Below, piece after piece: positions 1 through 13,196 of a stretch of DNA of 64,000 nucleotides. The stretch spans positions 186,001 through 250,000 of the forward strand of contig NZ_VSLG01000003.1 of the NCBI RefSeq assembly GCF_008919445.1, in the 5' to 3' direction. The notes beneath the pieces are model-generated. The model did not search any database, was not told where the DNA came from, and worked only from the letters and a program-made list of their open reading frames with translations. This stretch comes from Serinicoccus kebangsaanensis. Its GTDB lineage: Bacteria > Actinomycetota > Actinomycetes > Actinomycetales > Dermatophilaceae. How positions within the stretch are numbered: the first letter of the stretch is position 1; the number at the start of each line of letters is the position of its first letter. Position numbers and translations under genes: made by a program.

Positions 1-225
1 GCCGAGCACCTCGGGTGGGCGAGCGCCGTCGGGCGCGGCACCGCCGACGACGGTCCGGGTGCGACACCCAGTCGCTGGGTCGCGCTGTCCGCGGACGACG
101 CGGCGATCGAGGAGCTCACCGCCTCGGACCGGTGGCGGGACACCGGTGCCGGACGGGTCCGGTGGACCGATGACTTCGCCTCGGTGCTGCGGGTGCTGGA
201 TCTCGGCGACGACCCCGCCGGGTGA
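1..225 (+). CDS. Spermidine synthase-like protein, C-terminal fragment (cut by window edge)
   Basis: Frame 1 is open from the first base to a TGA at 223-225 and gives 74 residues of a truncated protein. The only recognisable stretch is 'RWTDDFASVLRVL' close to the end, which resembles the 'TDD-F/Y-A' signature near the C-terminus of spermidine synthase-like proteins, including the MFS-fused forms common in actinobacteria. Nothing catalytic lies in the visible part, so the name rests on one short motif. The gene reads in the same direction as glnA, with 133 bp between them that carry what look like glnA's own regulatory sites, so the two are probably not co-regulated. Confidence 0.4.
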   Translation, partial: AEHLGWASAVGRGTADDGPGATPSRWVALSADDAAIEELTASDRWRDTGAGRVRWTDDFASVLRVLDLGDDPAG

Positions 226-247
226 GCCTCGGCAGGTGACCGGAGGC

Positions 248-285
248 GTAACACCGACGTAACACCCGAGTGACCCTGCGGAAAC
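248..285 (+). promoter_or_regulatory. Putative GlnR binding sites upstream of glnA
   Basis: Four pentamers sit exactly 11 bp apart: GTAAC at 248, GTAAC at 259, GTGAC at 270 and GAAAC at 281. Each pair is separated by six bases. This matches the actinobacterial GlnR pattern gTnAC-n6-GaAAC, here as two consecutive boxes. GlnR is the OmpR-type regulator of nitrogen assimilation in Streptomyces and relatives, and glnA is one of its standard targets. The boxes end about 74 bp before the glnA start. Binding is inferred from pattern only. Confidence 0.7.
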
Positions 286-358
286 CACCGGCACGTAGGT
301 TGGGCATACCGGACCCGAACCCCGAGCTCTCGCCTGGTCCGCGACAGGAGGAACTGGA

Positions 359-1783
359 ATGTTCAGCAACGCCGATGAGGTGCTCGCCTTCATCAAGGAC
401 GAGGACGTCAAGTTCATCGACATCAGGTTCTGTGACCTGCCTGGTGTCATGCAGCACTTCAACGTCCCGGCGGAGACCTTCGACCAGGACGCCTTCGACA
501 CGGGGCAGATGTTCGACGGCTCCTCGATCCGCGGCTTCAAGTCGATCCACGAGTCGGACATGAAGCTCATCCCGGACCCGCAGACGGCATACCTCGACCC
601 GTTCCGGGCCGAGAAGACGCTCATCATGAACTTCTCGATCGTGGACCCGTTCACCGACGAGCCCTACGAGCGCGACCCGCGGCAGATCGCCCGTCGGGCC
701 GAGGAGCACCTGGCGTCCACGGGGATCGCGGACACCGCCTACTTCGGCGCCGAGGCCGAGTTCTACGTCTTCGACGACGTCCGCTTCGCGACCGGTCCGA
801 GCGGCGGTTACTACCACATCGACTCGATCGAGGCGGCGTGGAACACCGGGCGCGGCGAGGACGGCGGCAACCGGGGCTACAAGCCGCGCTTCAAGGGCGG
901 CTACTTCCCCGTCCCGCCGGTGGACCACTTCGCCGACATCCGTGACCGGATGGTGCTGGATCTGGCGACGGTCGGCATCGACGTGGAGCGCGCGCACCAC
1001 GAGGTCGGCACCGCCGGGCAGCAGGAGATCAACTACAAGTTCAACACCCTGCTCCACTCCGGCGACGACATGATGAAGTTCAAGTACGTCATCAAGAACA
1101 GCGCCTGGGCCGCGGGCAAGACGGCGACCTTCATGCCCAAGCCGCTCTTCGGGGACAACGGCTCGGGTATGCACACGCACCAGAGCCTGTGGAAGAACGG
1201 CGAGCCGCTGTTCTACGACGAGAACGGCTACGGCGGCCTGTCCGACATCGCGCGGTGGTACATCGGTGGCCTGCTGCAGCACGGGCCGGCGCTGCTGGCG
1301 TTCACCAACCCGTCGCTGAACTCCTACCACCGGCTGGTGCCGGGCTTCGAGGCGCCGATCAACCTGGTCTACTCGGCCCGCAACCGCTCGGCCTGCGTCC
1401 GCATCCCGATCACCGGCACGTCGGCGAAGGCGAAGCGGGTGGAGTACCGCGTGCCCGACCCGTCGTCGAACCCGTACCTGTCCTTCTCCGCGCAGCTGAT
1501 GGCCGGTCTGGACGGGATCAAGAACCGGATCGAGCCGCCGGAGCCGGTGGACAAGGACCTCTACGAGCTGCCGCCGGAGGAGCTGGCCGACATCGCCCAG
1601 CTGCCGACGTCGCTGCCGGAGGTGCTGGACGCCCTCGAGGACGACCACGCCTTCCTCACCGAGGGCGAGGTCTTCACCGAGGACCTGCTCGGTGCGTGGG
1701 TGGACTACAAGCGGGCCAACGAGATCACCCCGATGCGCCTGCGGCCGCACCCGCACGAGTTCGAGCTGTACTTCGACATCTGA
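359..1783 (+). CDS. glnA: Glutamine synthetase type I
   Basis: Encodes 474 residues, the usual GSI length, and makes glutamine from glutamate, ammonia and ATP in the cytoplasm. Visible signatures are the 'FDGSSIRGF' start-proximal motif near residue 50, the metal-binding '[10 protein letters not shown]' near 128, the ATP-site '[16 protein letters not shown]' region near 262-277, and the adenylylation loop '[10 protein letters not shown]' with Tyr402, so the enzyme is of the GSI-beta type controlled by GlnE. The ATG at 359 follows a strong AGGAGGA at 346-352. The gene is intact, but its last 22 bases (1762-1783) are the left attachment core of an integrated element, so the native downstream DNA now lies beyond 13006. 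Nitrogen control by GlnR is likely from the upstream boxes. Confidence 0.97.
1762..1783 (+). other. attL core, in the 3' end of glnA
   Basis: These 22 bases, running from within the Glu codon of the glnA tail 'FELYFDI' through its TGA, are repeated exactly at 12985-13006. The copies are 11,223 bp apart, and a tyrosine integrase gene ends 68 bp inside this one. The element therefore appears to have recombined into the 3' end of glnA and restored the last codons and stop. Confidence 0.88.
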
Positions 1784-1790
1784 TCGGAGA

Positions 1791-1826
1791 GAGGCCCTGA
1801 CCAGCACAAACGCTGGTCAGGGCCTC
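1791..1826 (+). terminator. Strong hairpin terminator after glnA, supplied by the element
   Basis: A perfect 15-bp stem (1791-1805 with 1812-1826) closes a 6-base loop eight bases after the glnA stop. Only a short T stretch (1830-1833) follows, so it would be a GC-rich actinobacterial type. It lies inside the element, between attL and the end of the convergent integrase gene, so it can serve both strands. Confidence 0.7.
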
Positions 1827-1832
1827 GATGTT

Positions 1833-1852
1833 TCCGTGAAAGTGTCCGTACT
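1833..1852. repeat. Putative integrase arm-type site, left copy
   Basis: This 20-bp sequence (tccgtgaaagtgtccgtact) recurs identically at 12871-12890, near the other end of the element and in the same orientation. It overlaps the stop end of the integrase gene. Tyrosine integrases bind such arm-type repeats flanking the core, so this is the likely role. Confidence 0.5.
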
Positions 1853-2948
1853 AGCCGGAAGCCGCACGCTGCCCGAGAGCGGCCGAGACGGCTGCCCGTG
1901 ACGTGTCGTCGCTGTCCGGCCACAGGTGCCCGTAGACGTCGAGCGTCGTCCTCGCCGAGGCGTGCCGCAGCCGGGTCTGCACCACCTTGACGTCGAGCCC
2001 CGAGGCGATGAGCATGCTCGCGAAGTAGTGCCGCAGGTCGTGGAACCTGAACCAGTCCGGCAGCCCGTCCACCCGCTTGCGAGCAACCCGCATCGCTCGC
2101 TCGATCTGCCACGGGCCGACCGGCTGGCCGAGCTGGTCGGCCACGACGGTGCCCGCACGGGTCGAGAGCATCGTGCAGAGCTCCCGCGGGATCGGCACCG
2201 CCGTGCGGCTGCACTCCGTCTTCAAGCCCTCCGCCGGCCACTGCACCGCGGGATGGATCACGCCCCGCAACCAGTCGACATCGGTCGTCCGCAGTGCGGA
2301 CACCTCGGCCACCCGTAGCCCGGCGAAGGCGCCGAGCAGGACTGCCGAGCGCAGGTGGTCGGGCATGGCGTCGTGCAGCGCCCATACCTGCGCTGTCGTC
2401 GCGACGTAGGGACGGGGCCGACCAGCAGCAGGGGACGTGCGCCTCGAGCACGGATTCCGCGGGATGAGCCCGTCATGCACCGCATCGGCCATGATCTGAC
2501 TCAGCCGACGATGCAGCGCGTAGACATAGGACGGTGCGAGCCCGTCGCGGCCGAGCCGGGCCACCCATGACCGGACAGCGGACGGCTTGACGTCGACCAG
2601 CGGCACCGCGCCGAACTCCGCGACGATCTGCCGCACATGCACCCGCGCCTGACGCACCGTGGACGGCTTGTGAGAGCCGTAGGCATCGAGCCACCGCTCG
2701 CACCACTGGCCGACCGTGGTCCTGGCGTCCCTGGCGCTCACGTGATCCCCGCGGATGACTCCGGAGCGTTGTGCCTCGATCCACTGCTCGGCATCGACCT
2801 CGCGAGCGAACCGCCGCGCCTGCTCCCTGCCGCTCGGATCGAAGTAGCGGGCGCGCCAGCGTGAGCCCTGGCCGTGGTCGGCGGTGGGCACGCGCTTGCC
2901 CGTGGCCCGGTCGAGACGGGTCCAGCGGTCTTGAATGAGCGACTTCAC
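1851..2948 (-). CDS. int: Tyrosine recombinase (phage-type integrase)
   Basis: A 365-residue site-specific recombinase that should catalyse integration and, with an excision factor, removal of the element at the glnA 3' end. The N-terminal part carries an arm-binding-like segment (about 25-60) and a SAM-like core-binding domain (about 75-165). The catalytic domain shows all expected residues: Arg212 in 'GLRVAE', Lys243, His303-x-x-Arg306 in 'HDLRH', His329, and the nucleophile Tyr339 in 'LDVYGHL'. The GTG start at 2948 overlaps the stop of the upstream HTH gene (GTGA), so the two are translationally coupled. The 3' end points at attL 68 bp away, the usual int-att arrangement. Confidence 0.95.
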   Translation of the reverse strand: MKSLIQDRWTRLDRATGKRVPTADHGQGSRWRARYFDPSGREQARRFAREVDAEQWIEAQRSGVIRGDHVSARDARTTVGQWCERWLDAYGSHKPSTVRQARVHVRQIVAEFGAVPLVDVKPSAVRSWVARLGRDGLAPSYVYALHRRLSQIMADAVHDGLIPRNPCSRRTSPAAGRPRPYVATTAQVWALHDAMPDHLRSAVLLGAFAGLRVAEVSALRTTDVDWLRGVIHPAVQWPAEGLKTECSRTAVPIPRELCTMLSTRAGTVVADQLGQPVGPWQIERAMRVARKRVDGLPDWFRFHDLRHYFASMLIASGLDVKVVQTRLRHASARTTLDVYGHLWPDSDDTSRAAVSAALGQRAASG

Positions 2949-3601
2949 TTCCGCACCTTCCCTGGAGTTGTCGGGGGAAGCAGACCAGCCCGTCGCGCCG
3001 CCTGGACGCGCGACGTGGCCTGCCGATGGCTCAGCCCCATGACCTCGGCCACGGCCTGTGTAGGACGGGCCGCCGCTGAGCGGTACACGTCCGCTGCCCT
3101 CTCGAGCTCCGCGTGCGGGATTCGAGGTCGGCCACGGGTGCCTCTGAGCTTGCGATCCACAGTGCGCCGCCCCTTCTTGTCCAGCGGGACGGTGTGGCTT
3201 ACGAGCAGGGCGGCCGTGTGGTCGCCCGCTGGCATCTGGTCGGCCTCGGGATCGCCCGGCGCGAAACCTCCTCGCTCCTCCATCGCGTGGCCGAGCAGTG
3301 CGTCACGCGCTACCTCATCGAGCGCCACGTCACGGATGGCCGTCGTGCTCACCGGCTGCTCGATGGTGCCGTGATGCTCGATCCGGAGGCAAAGCACCCG
3401 ACCATCGGCAACGGCAAAGTCAGCGGTCACCCGAACCTCGCCATCCACCGAGCGGGACCACCGAATGCGATCGGGCACGACGTAGACGCGTAGATCCATG
3501 TCCCACTCATCAGGCCCGACCTGGAAAGGCTCGCCTTCGGGCACTTCCAGCCGCGCCCAGCTCCAGCCGCTTGTCGGCTCTGCTCTCGTCTCAACCGCCA
3601 C
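2945..3601 (-). CDS. Element-borne protein with C-terminal helix-turn-helix
   Basis: Encodes 218 residues from a GTG at 3601, chosen because GAGAG lies seven bases upstream; an in-frame extension to 3706 has no good ribosome site and would cover the divergent promoter. The N-terminal two thirds is beta-rich and unrecognised. The C-terminus, from about residue 180 ('PTQAVAEVMGLSHRQATSRV'), reads as a helix-turn-helix, preceded by a basic linker 'GRRTVDRKLRGTRGRPR'. The gene is transcribed with int and away from the xis/rep block, the position of a master regulator in satellites and temperate phages. A control role is inferred from location and HTH only; the family is not identified. Confidence 0.6.
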   Translation of the reverse strand: MAVETRAEPTSGWSWARLEVPEGEPFQVGPDEWDMDLRVYVVPDRIRWSRSVDGEVRVTADFAVADGRVLCLRIEHHGTIEQPVSTTAIRDVALDEVARDALLGHAMEERGGFAPGDPEADQMPAGDHTAALLVSHTVPLDKKGRRTVDRKLRGTRGRPRIPHAELERAADVYRSAAARPTQAVAEVMGLSHRQATSRVQAARRAGLLPPTTPGKVRK

Positions 3602-3723
3602 CGTGACTCTCTCTGCCGAAAATTGCACCTTTTCTATGTAGGGACAACCTATACGCAAACACTCTAGTTTGTAAACAGACGCCGACCAACAAGGTCCGCA
3701 CCTCACCAGCAGGAGGACATGAC
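3602..3723. promoter_or_regulatory. Divergent promoter and operator region of the element
   Basis: This 122-bp gap separates the leftward regulator/int genes from the rightward xis/rep genes and is clearly A+T-rich compared with its surroundings. It contains an inverted repeat caaac-N6-gtttg (3656-3671) running into a near-palindrome gtttgtaaac (3667-3676), a plausible repressor site. TTGCAC (3623) and TATACG (3650) resemble promoter elements but are 21 bp apart, so no -35/-10 pair is assigned. A strong AGGAGG at 3711 serves the xis-like gene. Confidence 0.55.
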
Positions 3724-3936
3724 ATGGATCGCTACCTCACGAGTTCGGAAGTTGCCGAGCTTTGCCGCACGAGCCCGAGCACCGTCCGGTGGTGGCGCCA
3801 CGTCGGGCGCGGTCCGCGGGCGACGGTGCTACCCGGTGGCCGGCGCGTGCTCTACGCCCAGCGCGACGTCGAGGCGTTCCTCGCTGCTGGCAGGGAGCCC
3901 GAGCGCGAGACGACACCCGCCGCCGCGAGCCGCTGA
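3724..3936 (+). CDS. Excisionase/MerR-type small HTH protein
   Basis: A 70-residue protein beginning 'MDRYLTSSEVAELCRTSPST', the classic opening of the MerR-like excisionase (HTH_17) family, followed by 'VRWWRHVGRGPRATVLPGGRRVLY' as recognition helix and wing, and ending 'RDVEAFLAA'. Such proteins bend DNA at attachment sites as recombination directionality factors or act as repressors. It is the first rightward gene, with AGGAGG eight bases before its ATG, and it faces int across the divergent promoter. Excision factor is the best guess; a pure regulator is the alternative. Confidence 0.8.
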   Translation: MDRYLTSSEVAELCRTSPSTVRWWRHVGRGPRATVLPGGRRVLYAQRDVEAFLAAGREPERETTPAAASR

Positions 3937-4012
3937 CACCCATCCCACATCGGCGGCCGTGCCCCTCGCCCCACCCCGCGAGCCGCCGCCGAGCAGAACG
4001 GACCACGACACA

Positions 4013-5911
4013 GTGACCAGCGAACATGCCGCCGCCCCCGGCGGGAGCACCCACACCGAGGGCGGCGATCTAGACACAACCGTGACGAAAGCCATCACCA
4101 CGAGCGACACCGTCAGTATACCCCAGCAGGGTATGCCCACGGGCAACATCGCGGCTCCGTTCGAGCTCGCCGACACCCGGCCCTGCACCGGCCACCCCGC
4201 GCCCAATCCCCCGCCGTGGCCGCCCGCTAACGGGTTCACCGAAGACGACTTCCGCGACCCTGACCCCGAGCTTGGGCCGGACGGGAACCTCGTCGACCCG
4301 CCCGCCGACGTGCACGCTCAGGGTGAGGCCGACGTCGAGGCCGCAACCGCTGCGCACCACGCCGAGAACGCCGAGAGCAGGCACCCCTACTGCCTCGTTC
4401 GCCATGAGCGCGACGCCCAGCATCGCGGCGTCGACACGTCCACCTGGGATATCCGACCGCCTCGCGACGCCGCACTCGACCGCGTGCTCGCTGAGGCCGG
4501 GCTCGAGCCCATCCCCGACTTCGCCACCCCGCGGGAGATTGAGCGGGCCCGCCTCGTCGCTCGCGCGGCATACCGGCGCCAGCACGGCCACGCACCTGGC
4601 CTGCCGCAGCCTCCGCCGGCGCCCGTGAAGCAAGCTGCGGGAGCGGAGCCGGCCGCCGGCCAGCAGCGGGGCGACGACCTCGCGGCCATCGAAGAGGCGT
4701 TCTGGTCGGCCCGTGAGTCTCTGGCCCACATCCACAGCTTCGCCCTGGCCCGGATGGCCTCGCCGTGGGCCGTGCTCGGGGTGACCCTGGTCAGACTGCT
4801 CGGCACCGTGCCCCCGCACATCACGCTGCCGCCCGTCGTCGGTGCTGAGGCGTCTCTGAACAGCTTCCTCGCCCTCGTCGGCAACTCCGGCGGAGGGAAG
4901 GGCATCGCGATGGCCGTAAGCCGGGCGGCCGTGCCCCTCGGGACAGACGAGCCAGCCCAGAAGCCCCCCGGCAGCGGCGAGGGGATCGTCAAGGCGTTTG
5001 CCCACACCACGCGGCAGGGTGAGCTCATCCGCGAGCGCGAGTCCGTCGTCTTCGTCGCCTTCGAGGTGGATGCCGTGACCGCCCTGTCCGCGCGCGTGGG
5101 GTCGACGCAGGATGCGATCTTCCGCAGCGCGTGGTCGGGCGAGGAGCTCGGATTCTCCTACGCCGACAAGACGAAGGCGACGCAGCTTCCGGCCCACTCC
5201 TACCGTGCCGGCCTCATCCTCGGTGTCCAGCCCGAACGGGCGGCCGGACTGTTCGATCAGACCTCCGGCGGCACTCCGCAGCGGATGCTCTGGCTACCGG
5301 CGGACGACCCCGCGATCACGCCCGACGAGCTGCACCAGCCAGAGCCTCGCCGCATGGCCCGGCAGGCATGGTCAGGCAAGCCGCTGTCCCTGTCACTGCC
5401 GCCCGAAGCGATCCGGGCGGCCCGGGAGCACCGGGCGGCCCGCGGGCGCGGCGAGGGTGACGCTCTGGACTCGCACGCTATCCTCGTCCGGGAGAAGGTC
5501 GCCGCCGGCCTTGCTCAGCTCGACGGGCGACGCAGCATCACGTCCGAGGACTGGGAGCTGTCCGGCGTCGTCATGAGGAAGAGCAACGCCACGCGGGCCG
5601 GCGTGGTCCGCACCCTGCAGAAGGTCAGCACCGAGGAGAACAGGCGCCGGGGCGAGGCCGAAGGGGTCCGCCAGGTGGCCGCCCAGAGCGTGACCGACAA
5701 GGCCGCTGCGCAGCGGGTGACCGCGGTCGTGCGCCGCAAGCTGCTTGCCGCAGGCAGGGCTGGCCAGAGCCGCGGCGAGCTACGCAAGGCGATCTTCTCG
5801 GCAGACCGGCACCGGCTCGACGACGCGCTCGACGCCCTAACGCAGACCGGCGACGTCATCGCTACCGAGACGGCGAGGGGGGTGCGTCTCCAGTGGGCCG
5901 ACCAGTCCTAA
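4013..5911 (+). CDS. Replication-type P-loop ATPase (DUF3987-like)
   Basis: A 632-residue protein read from a GTG at 4013; the open frame extends upstream only by overlapping the xis gene in another frame, so that extension is rejected. Residues 1-230 are Pro/Ala/His-rich and poorly conserved-looking. The core follows 'VVGAEASLNSFLALVGNSGG', giving a Walker A 'GNSGGGKG' at about 290-297, and resembles the DUF3987-type helicase/primase-associated ATPases of actinobacterial prophages and islands. A winged-helix-like tail ('AGQSRGELRKAIFSADRHRL') closes the protein. The gene lies directly before a large inverted-repeat, A+T-rich structure, which suggests it is the element's initiator or replicative helicase. 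No primase active site was recognised. The start lacks a strong ribosome site. Confidence 0.65.
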   Translation: MTSEHAAAPGGSTHTEGGDLDTTVTKAITTSDTVSIPQQGMPTGNIAAPFELADTRPCTGHPAPNPPPWPPANGFTEDDFRDPDPELGPDGNLVDPPADVHAQGEADVEAATAAHHAENAESRHPYCLVRHERDAQHRGVDTSTWDIRPPRDAALDRVLAEAGLEPIPDFATPREIERARLVARAAYRRQHGHAPGLPQPPPAPVKQAAGAEPAAGQQRGDDLAAIEEAFWSARESLAHIHSFALARMASPWAVLGVTLVRLLGTVPPHITLPPVVGAEASLNSFLALVGNSGGGKGIAMAVSRAAVPLGTDEPAQKPPGSGEGIVKAFAHTTRQGELIRERESVVFVAFEVDAVTALSARVGSTQDAIFRSAWSGEELGFSYADKTKATQLPAHSYRAGLILGVQPERAAGLFDQTSGGTPQRMLWLPADDPAITPDELHQPEPRRMARQAWSGKPLSLSLPPEAIRAAREHRAARGRGEGDALDSHAILVREKVAAGLAQLDGRRSITSEDWELSGVVMRKSNATRAGVVRTLQKVSTEENRRRGEAEGVRQVAAQSVTDKAAAQRVTAVVRRKLLAAGRAGQSRGELRKAIFSADRHRLDDALDALTQTGDVIATETARGVRLQWADQS

Positions 5912-5940
5912 CGGCGCGGGCAGCCTTCTGGTCTTGCGGG

Positions 5941-6139
5941 GCTGGACAGGGGTGCGGCCAAGGGTGGAGAAAGTGGAGAATCTCCACCCCTGCCGGGGAA
6001 CGCATGCCCTTTATGGGTAGAGAGAGATCTATATATATACCTCTGACCTGCGGAAACGCTAAGCGCGCTCAGAGAGCGTTTCGGAGTAGGGGTGGAGATT
6101 CTCCACTTTCTCCACCCTTAGCCGCTACCCCTGTCCGGC
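5941..6139. repeat. Long inverted repeat with A+T-rich core, candidate replication origin
   Basis: Two arms form a 32-bp perfect inverted repeat (5960-5991 and 6088-6119). It extends outward, with one indel and one mismatch, through a further perfect 10 bp (5944-5953 and 6127-6136). Each arm contains three GTGGAGA-type elements, two direct and one inverted, so six copies surround the centre. The 96-bp core holds an A+T run (6029-6040, ctatatatatac) in a G+C-rich region and a second 8-bp inverted repeat (6053-6060 with 6075-6082). Iteron-like motifs, a melting-prone core and a position right after the ATPase gene fit an origin. The rest of the 5912-6255 gap shows no gene. A MITE-like insertion is the alternative. 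Confidence 0.6.
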
Positions 6140-6255
6140 TGCTGGTCGGCCTCGCCTACGGCCTATCCGAAGCCCTGCCCGCCTCCCCTGCCCACACTCC
6201 ACCTCCGCTAGACCGCCCCACCCGACACCGCATCCCTACAGGAAGGCACCACACC

Positions 6256-6540
6256 ATGAGCACCACCGCAGCACCGTCAGCTCCACAAGCCCTCGTCGTG
6301 TGGCGCGGTCGGCATACGGTCGTCGTCCAGTGCCCGCACGGCCGGCCTGACGCGCCGCACTATCACCGGCACGGCGCCAGCGGCGACGGTGACCGGGCGG
6401 GGCACTCCGGATGCCCCGGCTACACCGTGGTCGGCACCAACGCCGTGCCCGTCAGCAGCGATCCGACCCCGCGCGAGTACCGCACCCTCGCCCAGCTCTC
6501 GCGGCGCGAGCGGTCCCGCGCCCTGGCCGGCCAGCGATGA
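6256..6540 (+). CDS. Small His/Cys-rich protein of unknown function
   Basis: A 94-residue protein starting at ATG 6256 with AGGAAGG (6240-6246) at good distance; the longer open frame from 5893 runs through the origin-like repeat and is not credible. Residues about 23-55 contain 'VVQCPHGRPDAPHYHRHG' followed later by 'HSGCPGYTVVG', so one CPH, several His and a second Cys could bind a metal. No family was recognised. It is the first gene after the origin-like structure and reads with the rest of the rightward block. The C-terminal 'YRTLAQLSRRERSRALAG' looks helical and basic. Confidence 0.55.
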   Translation: MSTTAAPSAPQALVVWRGRHTVVVQCPHGRPDAPHYHRHGASGDGDRAGHSGCPGYTVVGTNAVPVSSDPTPREYRTLAQLSRRERSRALAGQR

Positions 6541-6628
6541 CCACCGCAGCGCCGGGCCACACCCCAGCTACCCGCAGCACCACCCCGCCCGCGGCGACCG
6601 CCGCAGGCATCATCGAAAGGAAGTCAGC

Positions 6629-7696
6629 ATGACCACCCAGCCATTCCCCTCCCAGTCCCCGGCCCTGCCGGACCAGCCCGACGCGCCGACGCAGACGCAG
6701 CGTCTCGACCCGGCCAAGCTCGCCGACCGGGCGATGCCCCGCGATGGCTCCCGGCCGGGCGGCACGATGGGCTACGACGAGCTCGATGCCGTGGACAAGA
6801 TGTCCCGGGACGACAACGCCCTCCGGCCGCAGATGGGCCGCACCGGCAACGACGGCCTCGGAGGCGCCCTGGATACTCCGAGCTGGAGCGACAACTCGCC
6901 AGACCGCCGGCCGGCCGTCCACGCTGCACTCCAGATCAAGCGGCTCGATCAGGCCTGGAGCACCGTCGTCTCCACCGTCGCGGACGCCCGGGCGGCGAGG
7001 GATGCAGCGAGGGCGGTCCCGGCGGAGCAGAGGCGCCAGGAGGCCGCTCACGACCGGGCGGTGAGCGATGCCGCCCGCACCGGGAAGGAACCCCCGACCG
7101 CCGTCCCGGTCGACTGGCCCGCTCGGGCCCGTGAGCTGACCGCCACGGCCCAGGGCAAGGCGCACCGGGCCAGGGACGCCAGGGCGGCCTATAACCAGCT
7201 CTGGGAGGAGCTCAGCAGCGATGCCGACGCGCAGCGCGAGCGAGTGACCAAGGCCGTGCTCAGCGCCCGTGCCGACCTGGCGTCTGCCCTGGAGCAGGCC
7301 GAGCAGGCCCTCGCCACGCTGGCCGACGCCTGGAGCGCAGCGAGCACCCTGCCCAGCCAGGACGAGGACATCGCTCTGCACCCACACCAGCGCATGCCCC
7401 AGAAGGCAGGGCAGCACCTCGCAGCAGCGAGCGCAGCCCTCGCCAGCCTCGACCCAGACAGGCCGATCTTTGTCACAGGCAGGGGCACAGCACTGAGCCT
7501 GCGTGAGCGCAGGCAGTGGGCTGACGCTGCCAACTCTGGCGACCAGCGCGCCAGGCACGAGCTCGCCCAGCTCGAGCGACACGAGGGCTACGCAGTGAGC
7601 GCGTTCAGCAAGCACTGGGGACAGCTGGGCCCGAAGCCGGCCGACGTCCGAGACCTGGCCCGGCTCCACCGCGCCGAGCAGCAGCGCCAGAGCTGA
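6629..7696 (+). CDS. Coiled-coil protein of unknown function
   Basis: A 355-residue protein read from ATG 6629, preceded by GAAAGGAAG; the longer frame from 6389 overlaps the previous gene and is rejected. After a Pro/Gln-rich, probably disordered head (1-90), residues about 100-255 are almost all Ala, Arg, Glu and Gln and should form long coiled coils ('DARAARDAARAVPAEQRRQ', 'ALEQAEQALATLADAWSAA'). The last 60 residues are Arg/Glu-rich. No catalytic motif or family was recognised. Similar Ala/Arg/Glu-rich coiled-coil proteins are common in actinobacterial plasmids and prophages, but that gives no function. A scaffold or DNA-binding role is possible only in a general sense. Confidence 0.55.
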   Translation: MTTQPFPSQSPALPDQPDAPTQTQRLDPAKLADRAMPRDGSRPGGTMGYDELDAVDKMSRDDNALRPQMGRTGNDGLGGALDTPSWSDNSPDRRPAVHAALQIKRLDQAWSTVVSTVADARAARDAARAVPAEQRRQEAAHDRAVSDAARTGKEPPTAVPVDWPARARELTATAQGKAHRARDARAAYNQLWEELSSDADAQRERVTKAVLSARADLASALEQAEQALATLADAWSAASTLPSQDEDIALHPHQRMPQKAGQHLAAASAALASLDPDRPIFVTGRGTALSLRERRQWADAANSGDQRARHELAQLERHEGYAVSAFSKHWGQLGPKPADVRDLARLHRAEQQRQS

Positions 7697-7913
7697 GCGC
7701 GGCCATGACTCCCCCGCCCCTCGCCGCCGTATGGGCAGCGCTACACGCCGCTCATCCACCCACGGCTGTGGGGGGTGGGGGGTTACCCCCTGGCCCGTCG
7801 ATCGCCCGACCGTACCCCATAGCGCCCGCCTCTCCGTGCAGCACGCTCAGCCCTGATATTTAGCCCCAGGCTAACTATCTAGCAGCACCCTCCGCACCCG
7901 TTAGGAGCCACGC
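7697..7913 (+). promoter_or_regulatory. Intergenic region before the packaging-type gene
   Basis: This 217-bp gap holds a run of G tracts (about 7770-7782) directly followed by a C tract (7786-7790), giving a short hairpin and possible G-quadruplex, then an A+T-rich patch (about 7855-7885, including TGATATTTAGCC and TAACTATC). It could end the replication transcript and start a separate one for the small-terminase block. GTTAGGAG just before 7914 is the ribosome site. No promoter pair is convincing enough to assign. Confidence 0.35.
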
Positions 7914-8345
7914 ATGACCCCGATGCCCGACCTGCTCACCGATCCTGAGCAGCCACCGCCCCCACCGCCGACGCTGGCCGGCAAGCCGCGTGCCCTGGAC
8001 CTCTGGCAGGCCGTCACGTCCCGCTACGCGCTCCGCGCCGACGAGCTCGTCGTGCTGGAGCAGGCATGCCGGATGCTCGCCGTCTGTGACCACCTGGCCG
8101 AGGCTCTGGCAGGGCAGCCGTTGGTGGTCGAGGGGTCGATGAAGCAACCGGCCCCACATCCTCTCCTCCCTGAGCTCCGGGCGCACCGCTCGCAGCTCGC
8201 CGCCCTGCTCCGCCAGCTCCACCTACCCGACGAGCTGGCCCCGGCCGGCGAGGACGGCGGCAACGAGGGCGCCAGCGTCTCCGAGCTAGCCCGCAAGGCC
8301 GCCCGTGCGCGCTGGGACAAGCACGCTGCGCAGAAGGCCCGCTGA
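7914..8345 (+). CDS. P27-family phage small terminase subunit-like protein
   Basis: A 143-residue protein. After a Pro-rich head, residues about 27-105 follow the P27-type small terminase pattern: 'LDLWQAVTSRYALRADELVV', 'LEQACRMLAVCDHLAEAL', then 'HPLLPELRAHRSQLAALL' and 'LHLPDE'. The family recognises phage DNA and hands it to the large subunit. No large terminase follows, so here it would have to work with a helper phage's large subunit, as the small terminases of staphylococcal islands do. The tail 'SELARKAARARWDKHAAQ' is basic and helical. Family assignment is by pattern; satellite function is inferred. Confidence 0.7.
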   Translation: MTPMPDLLTDPEQPPPPPPTLAGKPRALDLWQAVTSRYALRADELVVLEQACRMLAVCDHLAEALAGQPLVVEGSMKQPAPHPLLPELRAHRSQLAALLRQLHLPDELAPAGEDGGNEGASVSELARKAARARWDKHAAQKAR

Positions 8346-8346
8346 C

Positions 8347-8619
8347 ATGGCACGCGCATACCGCAGGCCCGCACCGACCGCTCCCCCGATCGAGGTGCTC
8401 GTGGCCAAGGTGGACGAGGAGCTCATCGACCAAGAGTCGAGGCCGCCTTCCCGGCCGCTCTGGGAGGCCCTGGACGACGAGGAGAAGGAAGCCGTCGTGA
8501 CCCTGGCCCAGACCGAGCACGGCATATCGGCCGTCCGCACGTGGCTGATCGGCAATCGGCAGGACGACGCCGACCGCCTGCTTGGAGCCGTCGTCTGGAC
8601 GTTGGGCGACGCCCGATGA
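8347..8619 (+). CDS. Small protein of unknown function downstream of the TerS-like gene
   Basis: A 90-residue protein starting at ATG 8347, one base after the previous stop, so the pair is certainly co-transcribed. It begins with a basic stretch ('MARAYRRPAPTAPP') followed by acidic, helical sequence ('LWEALDDEEKEAVVTLAQTE') and ends 'WTLGDAR'. No family was recognised. Tight coupling on both sides (its stop overlaps the WhiB-like start as ATGA) suggests a role in the same step as the neighbouring products. Confidence 0.6.
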   Translation: MARAYRRPAPTAPPIEVLVAKVDEELIDQESRPPSRPLWEALDDEEKEAVVTLAQTEHGISAVRTWLIGNRQDDADRLLGAVVWTLGDAR

Positions 8620-9455
8620 GCGCCCAGCCGACGACGCAGCACGAGGGCAGCAGCGACCGACTCGTCGCCGAGCTGGAGGCCGTCGCCGACGCTCACGACC
8701 AGCAGGCCGAGGCCGTAGACCGCGATGCCGTGGTCGCGATGACCCCGGCCGAGCGGCGCGCATGGTTCCGCAGCACCCCGAAGAAGGCCCGCTGGGCCGT
8801 GCTGACCGACCCGCAGGCCCCGGCGCTGCCCGGGGCGGACCGCTGGCACGAGAAGGCCGCGTGCAGCGGCGTCGGCGCCGATCTGGTCGAGCTGACCACG
8901 CAGGCCGCCGGCAAGCCCTACGCCGAGGAGCTGTGCGCCGCCTGTCCTGTGATCGCTCACTGCGCCGCCGACGCTGCAGCACATCCGGCGTGGGGACTCT
9001 GGGCCAGCGTGGTGCATCGCGGCAGGCTGGCCCCGGACAGCCCGCAACGCAAGGCCACGCTCGAGCGGGTCGCGTCGTGGCTGGCCTGCTACCTGGCCGA
9101 CAACGGGCCGACCCTGCCCGGCGTGATCCTGCAGAGCGCCCCGTGCGGGTCCGGCCTGCTTCGCCGCGCCGCCGACCACCTCGGCATCGAACGCCGCGGC
9201 GGCATGGCCCTCTGGTGGCTCCCCGAGGGTCACGAGCTGGACGTCGAGGACGAGCAGCCCCGAGGCGATGGTCGGCCGATCCCTGGCCCGCTGCCCGGCC
9301 TGCCCCTCGATCCTGCCGCCCGCACCGCCTCCGCCGGCCTGCTCGCCCCGCCACTGCCTCAGCAGGCCGAGGAGCAGCCGCGCCGCCGTGGTGGGCAACG
9401 TCGCCAGCCACGCCGCCCCCGATCCCGACGCAGCAGGAGAGGACTCCCCCGATGA
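8616..9455 (+). CDS. WhiB-like Fe-S regulator with long basic tail
   Basis: A 279-residue protein with the four-cysteine WhiB pattern: Cys83, then Cys107-x2-Cys110-x5-Cys116 ('LCAACPVIAHC'), followed by 'WGLWASV', which matches the G-[VIL]-W turn after the cluster. WhiB proteins hold a 4Fe-4S cluster and usually act by binding region 4 of the primary sigma factor; actinophages carry versions that redirect host transcription. This one is far longer than usual (about 80-130 residues), with extra sequence before the domain and an Arg-rich tail from about 250. It overlaps its neighbours by 4 bp on both sides. A role in switching host or element transcription is likely but inferred. Confidence 0.8.
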   Translation: MSAQPTTQHEGSSDRLVAELEAVADAHDQQAEAVDRDAVVAMTPAERRAWFRSTPKKARWAVLTDPQAPALPGADRWHEKAACSGVGADLVELTTQAAGKPYAEELCAACPVIAHCAADAAAHPAWGLWASVVHRGRLAPDSPQRKATLERVASWLACYLADNGPTLPGVILQSAPCGSGLLRRAADHLGIERRGGMALWWLPEGHELDVEDEQPRGDGRPIPGPLPGLPLDPAARTASAGLLAPPLPQQAEEQPRRRGGQRRQPRRPRSRRSRRGLPR

Positions 9456-10369
9456 GCGAGGACACGCTGAACATCACCGACCGGACGGACCTGGAGGTCG
9501 CATGGGTTATGCAGCGGGGCCGCCTGGACGATGACCACTGGCTACGCCTGTGGCGCAAGTACCGCGACCGGGCCGACGTGCCGCGCAGGCCGATCACCCT
9601 CTACCGCGGCGCCCCGGCCCAGAACAAGCGCGGCATGTCCTGGACCGAGAGCCGCAGCGTGGCCGAGAACTTCGCCGCCCTCTGGGGCGAGCAGGCCGGC
9701 GGGGCCGTCTGGACCACGCAGGCACCGCCCAGCGCCATCCTCGGCCGCCCGAGCGATAGCGAGGTCGTGGTCGACCCTCGCAGGCTCGGCAGGGTCACCG
9801 AGGTCCGCGACGCCGCGCCCCACGAGGCACGGAAGCAGGAGAAGGCAGCCCAGCAGCAGGCCAGGGACGACCGCCGGGACCGCTCCCGCTGGCAGGCCAC
9901 CTACGACGCCGCCCTTCGCGCCCAACGTGGCTCCGGCGCCTCCTCGCTCCAGCAGGTGATGCGTGCCCGTCGAGCAGCCGACCGAGGCCGCCCCGCAGGC
10001 GGCAGGCCACGTCGGCAGGCAGGTGGTCGGCTCACCTCCAGCGCCGCCCTGACCTCTCTGGCCCAGCGACAGCACGAGCAGGACCAGCAGCCCGCCGAGC
10101 AGCAGGCCGAGCAGGACCGTCAGACCGAGCATCAGCTCGAGCGGGCCCAGGGGCGGCAGGTGGCCGTGCTCGCCGATGCCGACGCCTACCTCGCCGGCAT
10201 CGAGCAGCGGAAGCAGGATCGGGCCGACGCGCTCGCCGCCGAAGCCGCCCAGTGGCAGGCCGAGCACGACCAGCAGCGCCAGGAGGTCAGGGCCCGCCGC
10301 GCCGCCCGCTGGCAGGCCCTCCGCGAGCGCGAGGCAGCCCTCGCCGAGCAGGAAGCCGCCGCTCAGTAG
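9452..10369 (+). CDS. ADP-ribosyltransferase-like protein with coiled-coil tail
   Basis: A 305-residue protein starting at ATG 9452 inside the stop of the WhiB-like gene. Residues about 45-110 match the R-S-E pattern of mono-ADP-ribosyltransferases: 'TLYRG' with Arg52, 'GMSWTESRSVAENFA' with Ser63, and 'SDSEVVVDP' with Glu104. Many actinophages carry similar 'YRG...SWT' proteins. The rest is a long Gln/Glu/Arg/Ala-rich coiled coil. Phage enzymes of this fold modify host RNA polymerase or other targets; here it sits beside a WhiB-like factor, so transcription is a reasonable target. The target is unknown, and the ADP-ribosyltransferase call is by motif spacing only. Confidence 0.6.
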   Translation: MSEDTLNITDRTDLEVAWVMQRGRLDDDHWLRLWRKYRDRADVPRRPITLYRGAPAQNKRGMSWTESRSVAENFAALWGEQAGGAVWTTQAPPSAILGRPSDSEVVVDPRRLGRVTEVRDAAPHEARKQEKAAQQQARDDRRDRSRWQATYDAALRAQRGSGASSLQQVMRARRAADRGRPAGGRPRRQAGGRLTSSAALTSLAQRQHEQDQQPAEQQAEQDRQTEHQLERAQGRQVAVLADADAYLAGIEQRKQDRADALAAEAAQWQAEHDQQRQEVRARRAARWQALREREAALAEQEAAAQ

Positions 10370-10390
10370 AGGCATAGCGGCGCGCCTCTA
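10367..10390 (+). terminator. Weak hairpin after the ADP-ribosyltransferase-like gene
   Basis: A 7-bp inverted repeat (tagaggc at 10367 with gcctcta at 10384) begins in the stop codon and encloses 10 bases. No T run follows. It could attenuate transcription into the kinase/HIRAN pair, which starts 36 bp further on. Confidence 0.3.
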
Positions 10391-10425
10391 CTCGCGCGTC
10401 ATTCCCGCATGATCGGCTGTCGAAC

Positions 10426-11265
10426 GTGGAGCGGATCGACGTCAGCGACTGGCACACCATCCGACTAGAGGATGAAGGCCGCGAGCAGAACAAGGCGTGG
10501 ATCGCGGCCGGACCAGGGCTAAGCCGGGAGCACTGGTGGCTCTGGAAACCCCAGCAGATGACCGGGAAGCAGCCCAAGACCGTCCCCCGGCACAACGACG
10601 TGTCCGAGATGCTGGCATCGCACCTGGCACGGCATATCGGTCTCCCCGCCGCCCGGTGCGAGCTCGCCATCCGTCAAGGTCAAGCTGGCGCCATCTCGCA
10701 GAGCATGATCTCCGACAGGGTGGAGCTCATCCGGGGCAAGTTCGTCATGGCTTCCTGTGAGGAGTACTCTCTCGGCTCGATCCTGAGCATGCTCGCCGGG
10801 AACGTGGGAGTCCCCGCCAACTGCGAAGGCATGTCAGCGCGAGAAGTCTTTGCGGGATTCACCGTGTTTGATGCTTGGATCGCGAACACCGACCGTCACG
10901 ATGAAAACTGGGCGGTCGGGGAGCATGAGAACGGGAAGCAGTCGCTCCTACCCTCCTTCGACCACGGCAGCGCCCTCGGTAGCGGCCTCACCGACGACAA
11001 CAGGCGCAAGCGGGATGCTGTCAGGTTCTGCGAGGACGGCAAGACCCGCAAGTACGGGCAGCCTCGTCGAATACTTGACGTAGCCCGAGAAGCCCTCGAC
11101 CTCACGGGCGCCTACTGGTGGGCCGAGCGCGTGGCTGAAGTGCCGCCCGACGCCTGGCGCGGCATACTGGCAGGCATCGATGGCCTGTCAGACGTCGCGC
11201 GTACCTTCATAGATGACGTACTGACGACCAACCAAGAAAGGGTGAGCACGCTATGTCAACGATGA
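10426..11265 (+). CDS. HipA-like (PI3/4-kinase-fold) protein kinase
   Basis: A 279-residue protein from a GTG at 10426. The ATP-site Lys is probably in 'WLWKPQ' (about 41), and the catalytic segment 'FDAWIANTDRHDENWAV' supplies Asp156 and Asn161, followed by the metal-binding 'FDHG' with Asp179. This is the layout of HipA/CtkA-type kinases; HipA phosphorylates glutamyl-tRNA synthetase and causes growth arrest. It is shorter than HipA (about 440) and lacks the N-terminal subdomain, as do split or minimal forms. No HipB-like repressor lies upstream; the next gene, a HIRAN protein, overlaps it by 13 bp. Toxin, defence effector or regulator are all possible. Confidence 0.75.
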   Translation: MERIDVSDWHTIRLEDEGREQNKAWIAAGPGLSREHWWLWKPQQMTGKQPKTVPRHNDVSEMLASHLARHIGLPAARCELAIRQGQAGAISQSMISDRVELIRGKFVMASCEEYSLGSILSMLAGNVGVPANCEGMSAREVFAGFTVFDAWIANTDRHDENWAVGEHENGKQSLLPSFDHGSALGSGLTDDNRRKRDAVRFCEDGKTRKYGQPRRILDVAREALDLTGAYWWAERVAEVPPDAWRGILAGIDGLSDVARTFIDDVLTTNQERVSTLCQR

Positions 11266-11918
11266 CCAGGACGAGCACACGGCGCCTGTTGGTCACCCGC
11301 CGCAACCCCGAGACAACTCACTACGAGGCCGTGGGGGAACTCGTTCGAGACGAGAACGGATTCACCTTCACCTACCGGGACGGCAGCCGCGCCCTGCCGA
11401 GCATGCCGCACACCGGCCAGCCCTACCGCTCCGACGTCCTGTTCCCCCTGTTCAGCCACCGCGTCATCTCCCCGCGCCGCGCGGACCACGACGCTTACCT
11501 CGCCGGCCTGCACCTTCCGCCCGAAGCAACTCCCTTCGAGGTACTGACGCGCTCTGGTGGTCGATCCGCCGTGGACACCCTGGAGCTCACCCCCATCCCC
11601 GAGCCCGGCCACGTGGACCTCTGCTTTCTAGTGCACGGCATCCGGCATCTTGGCGAGGCCGAGCGGGCGCGCATTGACACACTTAGGCCGGGTCAGCGGC
11701 TCCACCTGGAGGCAGCACCGGACACTCCCACCGACGAGCACGCCATCCTCGTCACGGATGACGGCCACCGGCTCGGCTACGCGCCCCGCCCCCTGACCCA
11801 GTACGTGCACCCCATCATGGCGAGCGAGCACGAACTCACGGTCGAGCGCGTCAACCACCGCGACGCCGGCTTCCACATGCGGCTGCTCGTGCGGCTGGTG
11901 GGCACCTACCCCGGCTGA
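11253..11918 (+). CDS. HIRAN domain protein paired with the HipA-like kinase
   Basis: A 221-residue protein starting within the last codons of the kinase gene, with AAAGGG upstream of ATG 11253. The N-terminal half ('LVTRRNPETTHYEAVGELV') resembles the region preceding HipA-type kinases. The C-terminal half matches a HIRAN domain: 'CFLVHGIRHL', 'LRPGQRLHLEAAPDTPTDEH', 'AILVTDDGHRLGYAPRPL' at about 125-190. HIRAN domains bind DNA ends or stalled forks in eukaryotic HLTF, and in bacteria they often sit next to HipA-like kinases. The overlap points to joint production, so the protein may be the kinase's regulator, antitoxin or sensor. The role is inferred. Confidence 0.65.
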   Translation: MSTMTRTSTRRLLVTRRNPETTHYEAVGELVRDENGFTFTYRDGSRALPSMPHTGQPYRSDVLFPLFSHRVISPRRADHDAYLAGLHLPPEATPFEVLTRSGGRSAVDTLELTPIPEPGHVDLCFLVHGIRHLGEAERARIDTLRPGQRLHLEAAPDTPTDEHAILVTDDGHRLGYAPRPLTQYVHPIMASEHELTVERVNHRDAGFHMRLLVRLVGTYPG

Positions 11919-11959
11919 ACACCGGCCATCGCACCGCCGTAGTTGGCAGGAGAGCTCTC

Positions 11960-12154
11960 GTGACCGAGGTATCCAATCGCGACACCTATCAGTCGCCCCC
12001 ATGCCGCCTGTGTGCCTCCGAGACGTTCGTCGTCAAGTGGCTGGAGAACCGCAAGCTCGGCAGCCCCACGGTCACCTGGATCGCTGTCCGAGCGTGTTCC
12101 AACACGGACTGCGAAGCAAGCCGCAGCGACCGCATGTGCCCCGTCCAGCCGTAG
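11960..12154 (+). CDS. Small Cys-rich (zinc-ribbon-like) protein
   Basis: A 64-residue protein from a GTG at 11960 with GGCAGGAGAG just upstream. It has two cysteine pairs, 'CRLC' near residue 15 and 'CSNTDC' near 46, separated by 'FVVKWLENRKLGSPTVTW', the spacing expected of a small zinc ribbon. No family name can be given. It is the last rightward gene of the element, 41 bp after the HIRAN gene, and may belong to the same cargo module. Confidence 0.55.
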   Translation: MTEVSNRDTYQSPPCRLCASETFVVKWLENRKLGSPTVTWIAVRACSNTDCEASRSDRMCPVQP

Positions 12155-12253
12155 CCAGGCTTCCGCTCGCAGGCGCCGCGGGCCGCGTCACCGAGGGAGC
12201 CATCGCCGCCGTGCTGGCAGGCGTCGTGAGTGGAGGCATGTAGTTGGGTAGGG

Positions 12254-12838
12254 CTACTCCTCGCCCTTGGCATACGGATCGCCGTTGATCCACGTCACTG
12301 TCTGCACCGAGGTCACCCCGGAACGAGCACCGTAGACGCCCACCTCGAACTCATCCCCCGTCCGGGGCCAACGGAAGGCGATGAGCCAGTGATCGGGATA
12401 CTGAGTTTCCTGCGTGACGACCAGCTCGCCGCGCACGACCTTTGCATAGCGGGTCGCTACTGCCCAGGTGGCCGCTTCGAGGGCCTCCTCTCGTGATGGC
12501 CTCGGAGGCATGCGCCGGTTCAGCAGTTCGAGCAGCAGAGCAACTGTGGGGACGGTGTTGATGACCCCGAGCGTGACCGACAACGCTTCGAGGCCGCTCG
12601 CACCGACTCCGCCCTGTGACTTCCGGTAGTCCTCGATGGCTCCCAAACCCCACAGGCACTCATCCCGTAGACGGTCGGTCACGGTCTCCAGATCGCCGAG
12701 ACTCCAGCCCTCCGCAGAGGTGGTCACCTCGATGGACCGCGTAGGCGTGAAGCGAGGGTCATCCGCCTCGATCACGAAGACCAGGCGAGTCTGCGCAGAC
12801 AGGGCCTCTCCTGCGAGGTCGGTCTCTTGCTCCGTCAT
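12254..12838 (-). CDS. Hypothetical protein next to attR, with one hydrophobic segment
   Basis: A 194-residue protein read from ATG 12838; the open frame extends to 12922 but would enter the arm-type repeat, and no good ribosome site exists for either start. Residues about 80-105 ('ALSVTLGVINTVPTVALLLE') are hydrophobic and could span a membrane or form a buried helix; the flanks are mixed alpha/beta. No family was recognised. It is the only gene in the element facing the rightward block and lies 147 bp from attR, the slot where satellites and prophages often keep independently expressed cargo such as immunity genes. That role is speculation from position. Confidence 0.5.
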   Translation of the reverse strand: MTEQETDLAGEALSAQTRLVFVIEADDPRFTPTRSIEVTTSAEGWSLGDLETVTDRLRDECLWGLGAIEDYRKSQGGVGASGLEALSVTLGVINTVPTVALLLELLNRRMPPRPSREEALEAATWAVATRYAKVVRGELVVTQETQYPDHWLIAFRWPRTGDEFEVGVYGARSGVTSVQTVTWINGDPYAKGEE

Positions 12839-12860
12839 GCACCGGAGGCTACCGACGTTT

Positions 12861-12890
12861 CCACGAAGTGTCCGTGAAAGTGTCCGTACT
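12861..12890. repeat. Putative integrase arm-type sites, right copy with tandem motif
   Basis: Positions 12871-12890 repeat exactly the 20 bp found at 1833-1852. Here the motif is doubled: GAAGTGTCCGT (12865-12875) is followed at once by GAAAGTGTCCGT (12875-12886). Tandem short repeats 95-120 bp from the core are typical of integrase arm sites. Confidence 0.45.
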
Positions 12891-12984
12891 TCCCCGGACT
12901 CTGCCAACCCCCACCAACGCAAAACCGCAGGTCAGAGCAACGTGCCCCAAACACGCAAACGCCGTCAAACCGCGGGTTGCAGTC

Positions 12985-13006
12985 CGAGCTGTACTTCGAC
13001 ATCTGA
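12985..13006 (+). other. attR core, copy of the glnA 3' end
   Basis: Exact 22-bp copy of 1762-1783. It has no upstream glnA coding sequence, so it marks the far end of the element. DNA right of 13006 should be the original sequence downstream of glnA. Confidence 0.88.
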
Positions 13007-13108
13007 CGAAGCGCGTGGGCGGCGGGCTGGCAGCGAGGAACGAGCTGTCGGCCCGCCGTAGCGCGAGGAAGGTGTCGAGAGAGCGGAGACATCTGACGGT
13101 CCGCCCGT

Positions 13109-13174
13109 CTGAGAGCCGGTTTGTCATCTGAGAGCCCCCTCCTCGGGGCTGACAGTTGACGAACCGGCTCTCAG
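13109..13174. terminator. Long bidirectional hairpin between attR and the UbiA gene
   Basis: A 13-bp perfect outer stem (13109-13121 with 13162-13174) encloses a smaller inner hairpin (agcccc...ggggct around 13132-13150). It lies between what was the native glnA end and the convergent prenyltransferase gene, so it is probably the original shared terminator. The rest of 13007-13196 shows no gene. Confidence 0.5.
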
Positions 13175-13196
13175 TGCGTCTGGGGGCTCGCGGACC

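Follow-up and report, generated by a model that had tools for sequence, protein, structure and literature searches.

A candidate phage satellite with a lone small terminase subunit at the glnA site of Serinicoccus kebangsaanensis

Satellites that carry a terminase small subunit (TerS) as their lone terminase gene represent the classical Staphylococcus aureus pathogenicity island (SaPI) type among phage-inducible chromosomal islands (PICI), according to the sections of PMC6092414 available to us. The same sections place the origin of Gram-positive PICIs immediately 3' of the replication gene and describe mapped origins as an AT-rich region between two sets of iterons. For Mycobacterium, candidate PICIs that carry capsid genes have been published (PMC10654092, partial text); the authors' own candidates were defined by an integrase and a major capsid gene, and SatelliteFinder was also run. 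Under the authors' own rule, elements without a capsid gene would be missed. Excerpts of PMC10690885 mention predicted PICIs of Actinomycetota, and excerpts of PMC10023795 suspect satellites among small prophage-like elements. Our partial literature search, with the main satellite survey outside it, found no description of a capsid-less actinobacterial satellite carrying TerS only. Here we describe an 11.2-kb insertion (1762-13006) in the 3' end of the glnA gene of Serinicoccus kebangsaanensis. The window is the whole analysed stretch of 64,000 nt (GCF_008919445.1, NZ_VSLG01000003.1, 186,001-250,000, forward strand), and coordinates are window positions unless another contig or locus is named. 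We consider the insertion likely to be an integrated SaPI/PICI-like satellite whose own TerS diverts the terminase large subunit (TerL) of a helper phage, and very likely to be a satellite of one type or another.

The initial annotation had proposed an 11.2-kb element with exact 22-bp ends. The repeat pair was confirmed and matches empty sites in same-genus genomes. An extended version of the repeat covers 26 bp at 96% identity in the repeat search, and the longest repeat in the scanned flanks is 22 nt compared with at most 15 nt in 20 shuffles. The gene at 359-1783 is presumably glnA, judging by its protein sequence. Its 3' part was searched against 58 genomes, the element's own included, and all 58 matched at E <= 0.001 (G024 and G074 weakly). 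The 30 loci with sequence, including that of the window, were oriented and compared to the right flank of the window. The glnA end joins this flank directly in G018 (L084), G029 (L086) and other same-genus genomes. By this comparison, the element is inserted at the 3' end of glnA with the gene left intact. The 9-mer AGTGTCCGT has its sole occurrences in the 64 kb at 1841, 12867 and 12879, just inside the two ends and within a 30-nt repeat (1823-1852/12861-12890, 90%). A 30-nt inverted repeat (87%) lies at 13109-13174, just outside attR. The ends and the integration, replication and packaging side of the element are listed here, with comparisons to element B, a second element of the same genome:

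1762..1783, + strand: attL, 22-bp core forming the last bases of gene 359-1783; exact direct repeat, same-genus empty sites
1841..1849, + strand: candidate arm-type site for the integrase, a AGTGTCCGT box close to attL on the element side
1851..2948, - strand: tyrosine integrase, 365 aa (PF00589 8.8e-18; phrog_1 1.6e-58)
2945..3706, - strand: putative regulator, 253 aa, same direction as the integrase gene and away from xis; similar piece in L046
3724..3936, + strand: xis-like protein with MerR-type helix-turn-helix (HTH), 70 aa (HTH_17 1e-10; phrog_66 excisionase 3.8e-10)
4013..5911, + strand: replication ATPase, 632 aa (phrog_28894, DNA polymerase/primase, 1.4e-74; phrog_11515 3.4e-70)
5949..6130, no strand: origin-like structure, mirrored GTGGAGA box sets round an AT-rich core; 55-nt arms, 85% complementary, 72 nt apart
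6629..7696, + strand: 355-aa protein encoded before terS, by eye helical and rich in Ala; 31% identity to the collinear gene of element B
7914..8345, + strand: TerS, P27-type terminase small subunit, 143 aa (phrog_1496 7.7e-17; phage TerS matches to 3e-17)
12867..12887, + strand: candidate arm-type sites for the integrase, two AGTGTCCGT boxes close to attR on the element side
12985..13006, + strand: attR, second copy of the 22-bp core, from the repeat search and the empty-site comparison

The layout follows the order of staphylococcal-type satellites, as was first proposed: att site, integrase, divergent xis/replication side, origin, lone TerS and accessory genes. Of the features expected of a PICI, the window element has the att site with an adjacent integrase gene, the origin layout and a TerS without TerL, the last being a feature of some PICIs. 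Pfam and PHROG profiles recovered the integrase, the xis-like gene and the replication-type ATPase. The leftward pair of integrase and regulator held for the integrase by profiles and for the regulator by position; the 253-aa protein is a putative regulator with a weak C-terminal HTH_23 match in Pfam (0.1), and the HTH protein Xis is encoded on the opposite strand. The ATPase corresponds by homology to the C-terminal region of phage DNA primase/polymerase, with 45-47% identity over about half its length to proteins of the Gordonia phages Reyja, Hibiscus and Tarzan, and it has no family in Pfam or NCBIfam. Searches of solved structures with the TerS profile and the ATPase gave no meaningful match. 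Directly 3' of the ATPase gene, GTGGAGA occurs six times, in two mirrored triplets (5963-5988 and 6091-6116) that enclose a core with GC down to 0.38-0.45, compared with about 0.7 in the surroundings. The DNA of this origin-like structure, which had been seen at the outset, folds at -78 kcal/mol versus -32.3 +/- 3.2 in 200 shuffles (z = -14.5). With its two iteron sets and AT-rich core immediately behind the replication gene, the structure corresponds to the PICI origin layout. A comparable inverted repeat occurs in 11 of 36 loci scanned, eight of them with the repeat 0.9-2.9 kb upstream of terS, and in none after one base shuffle per locus. The AT-rich loop is not universal, the loop of L150 being as GC-rich as its region.

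The 7914 protein groups with annotated small terminases, as the initial annotation had it, and is 47.7% identical to the TerS of Microbacterium phage Footloose over 73% of its length. We take P27 to be the name of this TerS family. Among open reading frames (ORFs) of at least 60 aa in window positions 1-16000, no profile match was found to TerL, portal, MuF, scaffold, capsid, protease, tape-measure or head-tail-adaptor proteins. The early claim of a TerS without a large subunit stands on these profiles, and no capsid set belonging to the element emerged. The further claim that structural, lysis and conjugation genes are missing holds for head genes and the tape measure by profiles. For other tail, lysis, FtsK and relaxase genes it holds within family scans of called genes: tail and lysis genes gave nothing there, with no search aimed at them beyond the tape measure, and FtsK and relaxase families were absent from Pfam scans of called genes and from NCBIfam scans of ten. 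A complete prophage was rejected given the missing head-gene and tape-measure matches and the length of 11.2 kb. A capsid-forming PICI, which would encode capsid, portal and both terminase subunits, was rejected for want of an own capsid, portal or TerL match in window 1-16000. An actinomycete integrative and conjugative element (AICE) or plasmid was rejected for want of transfer genes in the called-gene scans; only two plasmid records match the ATPase.

The search for a helper was extended to the whole genome. The Pfam models PF03354, PF04860 and PF05065 gave no match there. PF03354 missed large terminases in G077 and G373 that local profiles clearly found, which makes the negative Pfam result for the own genome unsafe and should serve as a warning for surveys relying on that TerL model. 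Ten genomes were searched with profiles made from TerL and portal proteins. The TerL profile matched six of them, four that had contributed to it (G006, G077, G373, G376) and two that had not (G355, G805). The portal profile matched five (contributors G006, G373 and G376; non-contributors G077 and G805). The genome of the window element matched neither, hence a helper would come from outside or have proteins beyond these profiles. In G805, a TerL-less TerS element sits at glnA on contig C16, and TerL and portal matches lie on contig C9, which is a possible resident helper of the C16 element in this one strain.

The own genome carries a second TerS, 44% identical to that of the window. It belongs to element B, which spans 11.8 kb (contig C1, 36760-48595; L041 and L042) in the 3' end of a gene that we take to be ychF from its protein sequence. 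The end repeats of element B measure 12 bp (36760-36771 and 48584-48595). Chance might produce a repeat of this length (two more were listed), and it is the empty site of G007 that fixes the boundary; relative to G007, the insertion alters the last few ychF codons. Eight genes are collinear between the two elements at 31-100% identity, in element B a 346-aa protein, TerS, a small ORF, WhiB, a 314-aa protein, the kinase, the HIRAN protein and a 64-aa ORF. In contrast, element B has a serine integrase and a primase different from those of the window element. The shared block from TerS to HIRAN next to differing integrases and primases indicates that the TerS block moves as a unit, with integration and replication modules being exchanged. 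Two elements in one genome show such module exchange plainly.

Genomes with relatives of the TerS numbered 30 of 396 in the order and, with profile A2, 19 of 396 in the phylum, the own genome being included both times. A collection scan with A2 yielded no pattern, and one with profile A3 returned 23 viral loci and 10 loci from genomes; scans of the collection with the single TerS found no relatives in viral contigs, and with the 305-aa protein pair no relatives. The Pfam model PF03354 found TerL in 5 of 32 genomes checked, a low estimate. Local profiles were applied to 56 non-duplicate host loci (L195, L200 and L204 left out as duplicates). Flanks reach at least 9 kb upstream and at least 3 kb downstream in 45 of them, which comprise element B and loci of other genomes, one of these (L199) a Chloroflexota record. 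Eleven loci were left out for short flanks: L048, which has TerL close by, and ten others, including the window, that show no TerL in the vicinity. The weak TerS match of L152, L153, L160 and L161 was lost under the local profile. All survey counts are loci rather than independent events. TerL lies beside TerS in 8 of the 45 host loci and is missing nearby in 37. An integrase is encoded within 10 kb upstream of TerS in 35/37 lone-TerS loci versus 2/8 TerL-linked loci, and a xis-like gene in 21/37 versus 2/8. A head gene of some kind occurs in 10 of the 37 lone-TerS loci, with none detectable in 27; scaffold matches in L045, L056 and L163 were lost on a later profile scan and the capsid match was kept in all three. 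Viral contigs have TerL beside TerS in 21 of 23 cases, so ordinary phages are picked up by the search as well. Repeats of at least 17 nt bound 21 of 37 elements tested (shuffles never exceeded 17), giving lengths of 8.1-12.5 kb and one of 14.8 kb, with a median of about 10 kb; this set consists of the lone loci minus L042, L128 and L162, plus the window, L047 and L125. A tRNA gene is found at the integrase end in L056, L126 and L055. Clearly decayed full prophages among the relatives would have spoken against a satellite; by these integrase, xis and end-repeat counts the relatives are mainly compact elements, with some head gene in ten of the 37 lone-TerS loci. The initial statement that actinobacterial examples are few has to be corrected, given the many TerL-less elements of the survey and the Mycobacterium candidates in the parts of PMC10654092 available.

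The glnA site itself appears to be used repeatedly. Integrases of the window type, 57-58% identical to that of the window, occur at glnA in L045, L127 and L154 from two other genus codes (L045 and L154 share one, L127 has the other), each with a TerS without TerL; L045 also has a capsid gene. Elements at glnA with related integrases in these three loci suggest that glnA is a recurrent attachment site of one integrase lineage. Related integrases at the glnA site were also found in G023 (61%) and G006 (59%; 58.7%), and short matches to the integrase end in G026 and G016. In G022 (L110, reverse complement 680-1143), a remnant of an element close to that of the window matches window 1083-2138 at 92.5% identity and then jumps to 10225-10356, that is from the 3' part of the integrase gene to the end of the 305-aa gene. 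G006 (L114, reverse complement 2-9760) holds a 9.7-kb element between two identical 22-bp repeats, with profile matches to TerL, portal, scaffold and capsid, a xis-like gene, MuF-like, HNH and head-tail genes by eye, and no tail or lysis genes seen. From this content, it looks like a capsid-forming PICI of the same genus. Phage head genes next to glnA were found in one of 15 same-genus regions (2-20 kb each), and this one is the G006 element. An att site not used by temperate prophages is stated for Gram-negative PICIs in the sections of PMC6092414 at hand.

Under the favored reading of a satellite that diverts packaging, infection by a helper phage would lead to derepression of the xis/replication operon. 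The element would then excise and replicate from its iteron origin. Its own TerS may bind a site on the element and recruit the TerL of the helper, and satellite DNA would fill heads made by the helper, which are probably small. The kinase/HIRAN pair described below might act against phages. The TerS of both the window and element B ends in an A..RW tail, a hint that each of them has a functioning TerL partner.

Several points weigh against this reading. The TerS falls below the Pfam cut-off (Terminase_4, PF05119: 0.011, 16.6 bits vs 24.7), and the 253-aa regulator is unrecognizable by sequence, Pfam giving the weak HTH alone. No helper phage was identified for the window element by the TerL and portal profiles in its own genome, and most genomes matched by these profiles had supplied sequences to them. 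The A..RW tail, searched as a regular expression, is present in 18/30 TerL-linked TerS compared with 13/45 lone TerS, so it says less for the class as a whole. The survey queries came from satellites, hence satellites may be over-sampled. The TerS tree is poorly resolved; its labels are clustered, requiring 10 label changes vs 23.6 in shuffles, but near-copies add to the clustering (L055, translated in a wrong frame for one TerS alignment, was dropped from the next). Our confidence in the full mechanism is limited by the mixed A..RW count and by a competing role of TerS in interference.

Under such an interference role, the satellite would be packaged by the terminase of the helper at a cos- or pac-like site and its own TerS would poison helper packaging. 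We consider this unlikely. Some SaPIs and an Escherichia coli PICI use helper cos sites according to the available part of PMC6092414, and 32/45 lone TerS lack the tail that 18/30 TerL-linked TerS have. Yet TerS is the one packaging gene kept in the window element and element B despite different integrases and primases, and in these two the tail suggests a partner TerL. Decay is a further and equally improbable-looking explanation, if anything slightly more so: a prophage, or a capsid-forming PICI reduced by deletions, would have lost TerL, portal and capsid and would now just reside in the chromosome. The G006 element, with a related integrase, a xis-like gene and matches to TerL, portal, scaffold and capsid at the same site, makes loss of a head module conceivable, and the remnant in G022 and the ten lone-TerS loci keeping some head gene point the same way. 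However, ORFs and att sites are intact in the window element, the TerL-less state is common to 37/45 TerS loci, and a TerL-less layout in recombinant copies, as in element B with its shared TerS block and unrelated integrase and primase, is not expected of random decay.

A mobilizable integrative element of the AICE or integrative mobilizable element (IME) type, moved by conjugation or plain transduction and with the TerS-like protein as a DNA-binding regulator, is very improbable. The int-xis-rep order is common to actinobacterial integrative elements, and the sub-threshold Pfam score of TerS would fit. AICEs carry an FtsK/SpoIIIE-type transfer protein, and neither an FtsK/TraB-type nor a relaxase family was found in the called genes (Pfam; NCBIfam on ten). 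PHROG and BLAST matches place TerS with packaging subunits, and its relatives adjoin TerL in 8/45 host loci and 21/23 viral contigs.

The gene before terS could add a further function to the packaging-diverting satellite. From its place and size, we guess that the 355-aa protein is a candidate capsid-redirecting scaffold; scans against Pfam, PHROGs, NCBIfam and PADLOC gave no family with a meaningful score. In 19 of 41 loci, counted by hand on gene maps made with a simple gene caller, terS is preceded by a gene of 227-390 aa, either immediately or with one small ORF in between. It encodes a capsid protein in L045, L129 and L131 and forms a homologous pair in the window and element B. The remaining proteins are mostly Ala-rich by eye and without family, that of L155 being unlike the others, and ten of the pre-terS proteins matched no PHROG of known function. 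The comparison does not show a single homologous family: the group of window, element B, L050 and L146 did not match that of L049, L055, L148, L203 and L043 (hhalign probability 0.1). We disregarded a phmmer match between the L055 protein and a capsid protein (2e-4) as an effect of composition. Tentatively, and with more doubt than conviction, we suggest a broad uncatalogued class of capsid-less actinobacterial satellites, mostly 8-12.5 kb long. These would have a P27-type TerS as their one packaging gene, freely swapped primases and integrases (tyrosine or serine) and a fast-evolving, probably helical pre-terS protein as capsid-redirecting scaffold, and their DNA might be packed into small heads of helpers infecting from outside. 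A survey requiring capsid genes would overlook such elements. A P27-type TerS that lacks TerL and has an integrase 4-10 kb upstream provides a simple signature, found here in 35 loci, and the trade of genes and phage defence through satellites in actinobacteria becomes a directly testable question.

Accessory genes occupy the right part of the element:

8401..8619, + strand: small ORF, 53% over 38 aa to element B
8616..9455, + strand: WhiB-domain protein, 279 aa (PF02467 3e-07, above cut-off); 42% to element B
9452..10369, + strand: 305-aa protein, match to a family of unknown function (phrog_4776, 0.0015); 42% to element B
10426..11265, + strand: HipA-like kinase, HipI-like (PF20613 3.8e-07; PADLOC PDC-M03A 4.1e-80)
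11253..11918, + strand: HIRAN protein with HipA-N-like N-terminus, HipN-like (PF08797 2.1e-08; PADLOC PDC-M03B 2.4e-67)
11960..12154, + strand: 64-aa ORF, identical protein in element B
12254..12922, - strand: 222-aa ORF, no family match in PHROGs, Pfam, NCBIfam and PADLOC scans; no counterpart in element B

The adjacent kinase and HIRAN genes match both component models of PDC-M03 and are a candidate defence system. The HipA-N-like match in the HIRAN protein (PF13657, 0.0089) is below cut-off, and the assignment as HipI-like and HipN-like follows the domain order rather than a tree. In the portion of PMC8262856 available, the hipIN module consists of the kinase HipI and of HipN, which joins a HipS-like part to HIRAN, and its authors suggest sensing of phage DNA ends. 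The window pair resembles this module in having a kinase gene followed by a HipA-N-like and HIRAN gene. Unlike the module as described there, the pair is located on satellite-like elements and occurs twice in one genome, in element B by similarity.

Among known satellites, the window element is most readily compared with SaPIs and Gram-positive PICIs as described in part of PMC6092414. It shares with them the specific att site, an integrase gene at one end, a putative regulator divergent from the xis/replication side, an iteron and AT-rich origin after the replication gene, a lone TerS and accessory genes. It differs from SaPIs in lacking a recognizable Stl and in having a phage primase/polymerase-type ATPase in place of the pri/rep pair described for SaPIs, as well as in its P27-type TerS, WhiB protein, kinase/HIRAN pair and actinobacterial host. 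The Mycobacterium PICIs and phiRv1/phiRv2, going by the excerpts of PMC10654092, are likewise actinobacterial, use tyrosine or serine integrases and in some cases have terminase and replication genes. The Mycolicibacterium aichiense phage records OR387110-OR387121 (10.9-11.1 kb) match the TerS in 12 of 12 cases among the matches listed, with P27-type TerS 34.6-40.7% identical to that of the window. Two of them, OR387119 (L009) and OR387116 (L010), have a serine integrase and no annotated TerL and look like satellites deposited as phages; unlike the window element, they encode scaffold, capsid, tape-measure and head-tail proteins. A literature search turned up no paper on satellites of M. aichiense. 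Capsid-forming PICIs, as far as PMC10690885 was available, are also small integrated satellites, whereas the window element has no capsid, portal or TerL gene. The Streptomyces satellites MulchRoom and MiniFlayer of the same source are actinobacterial phage satellites too. They encode encapsidation machinery without key replication genes, a division of labour opposite to that of the window element. PICIs with capsid genes have been proposed in actinobacteria before, and the capsid-less form with TerS only appears to be new among the PICI-like satellites of this group.

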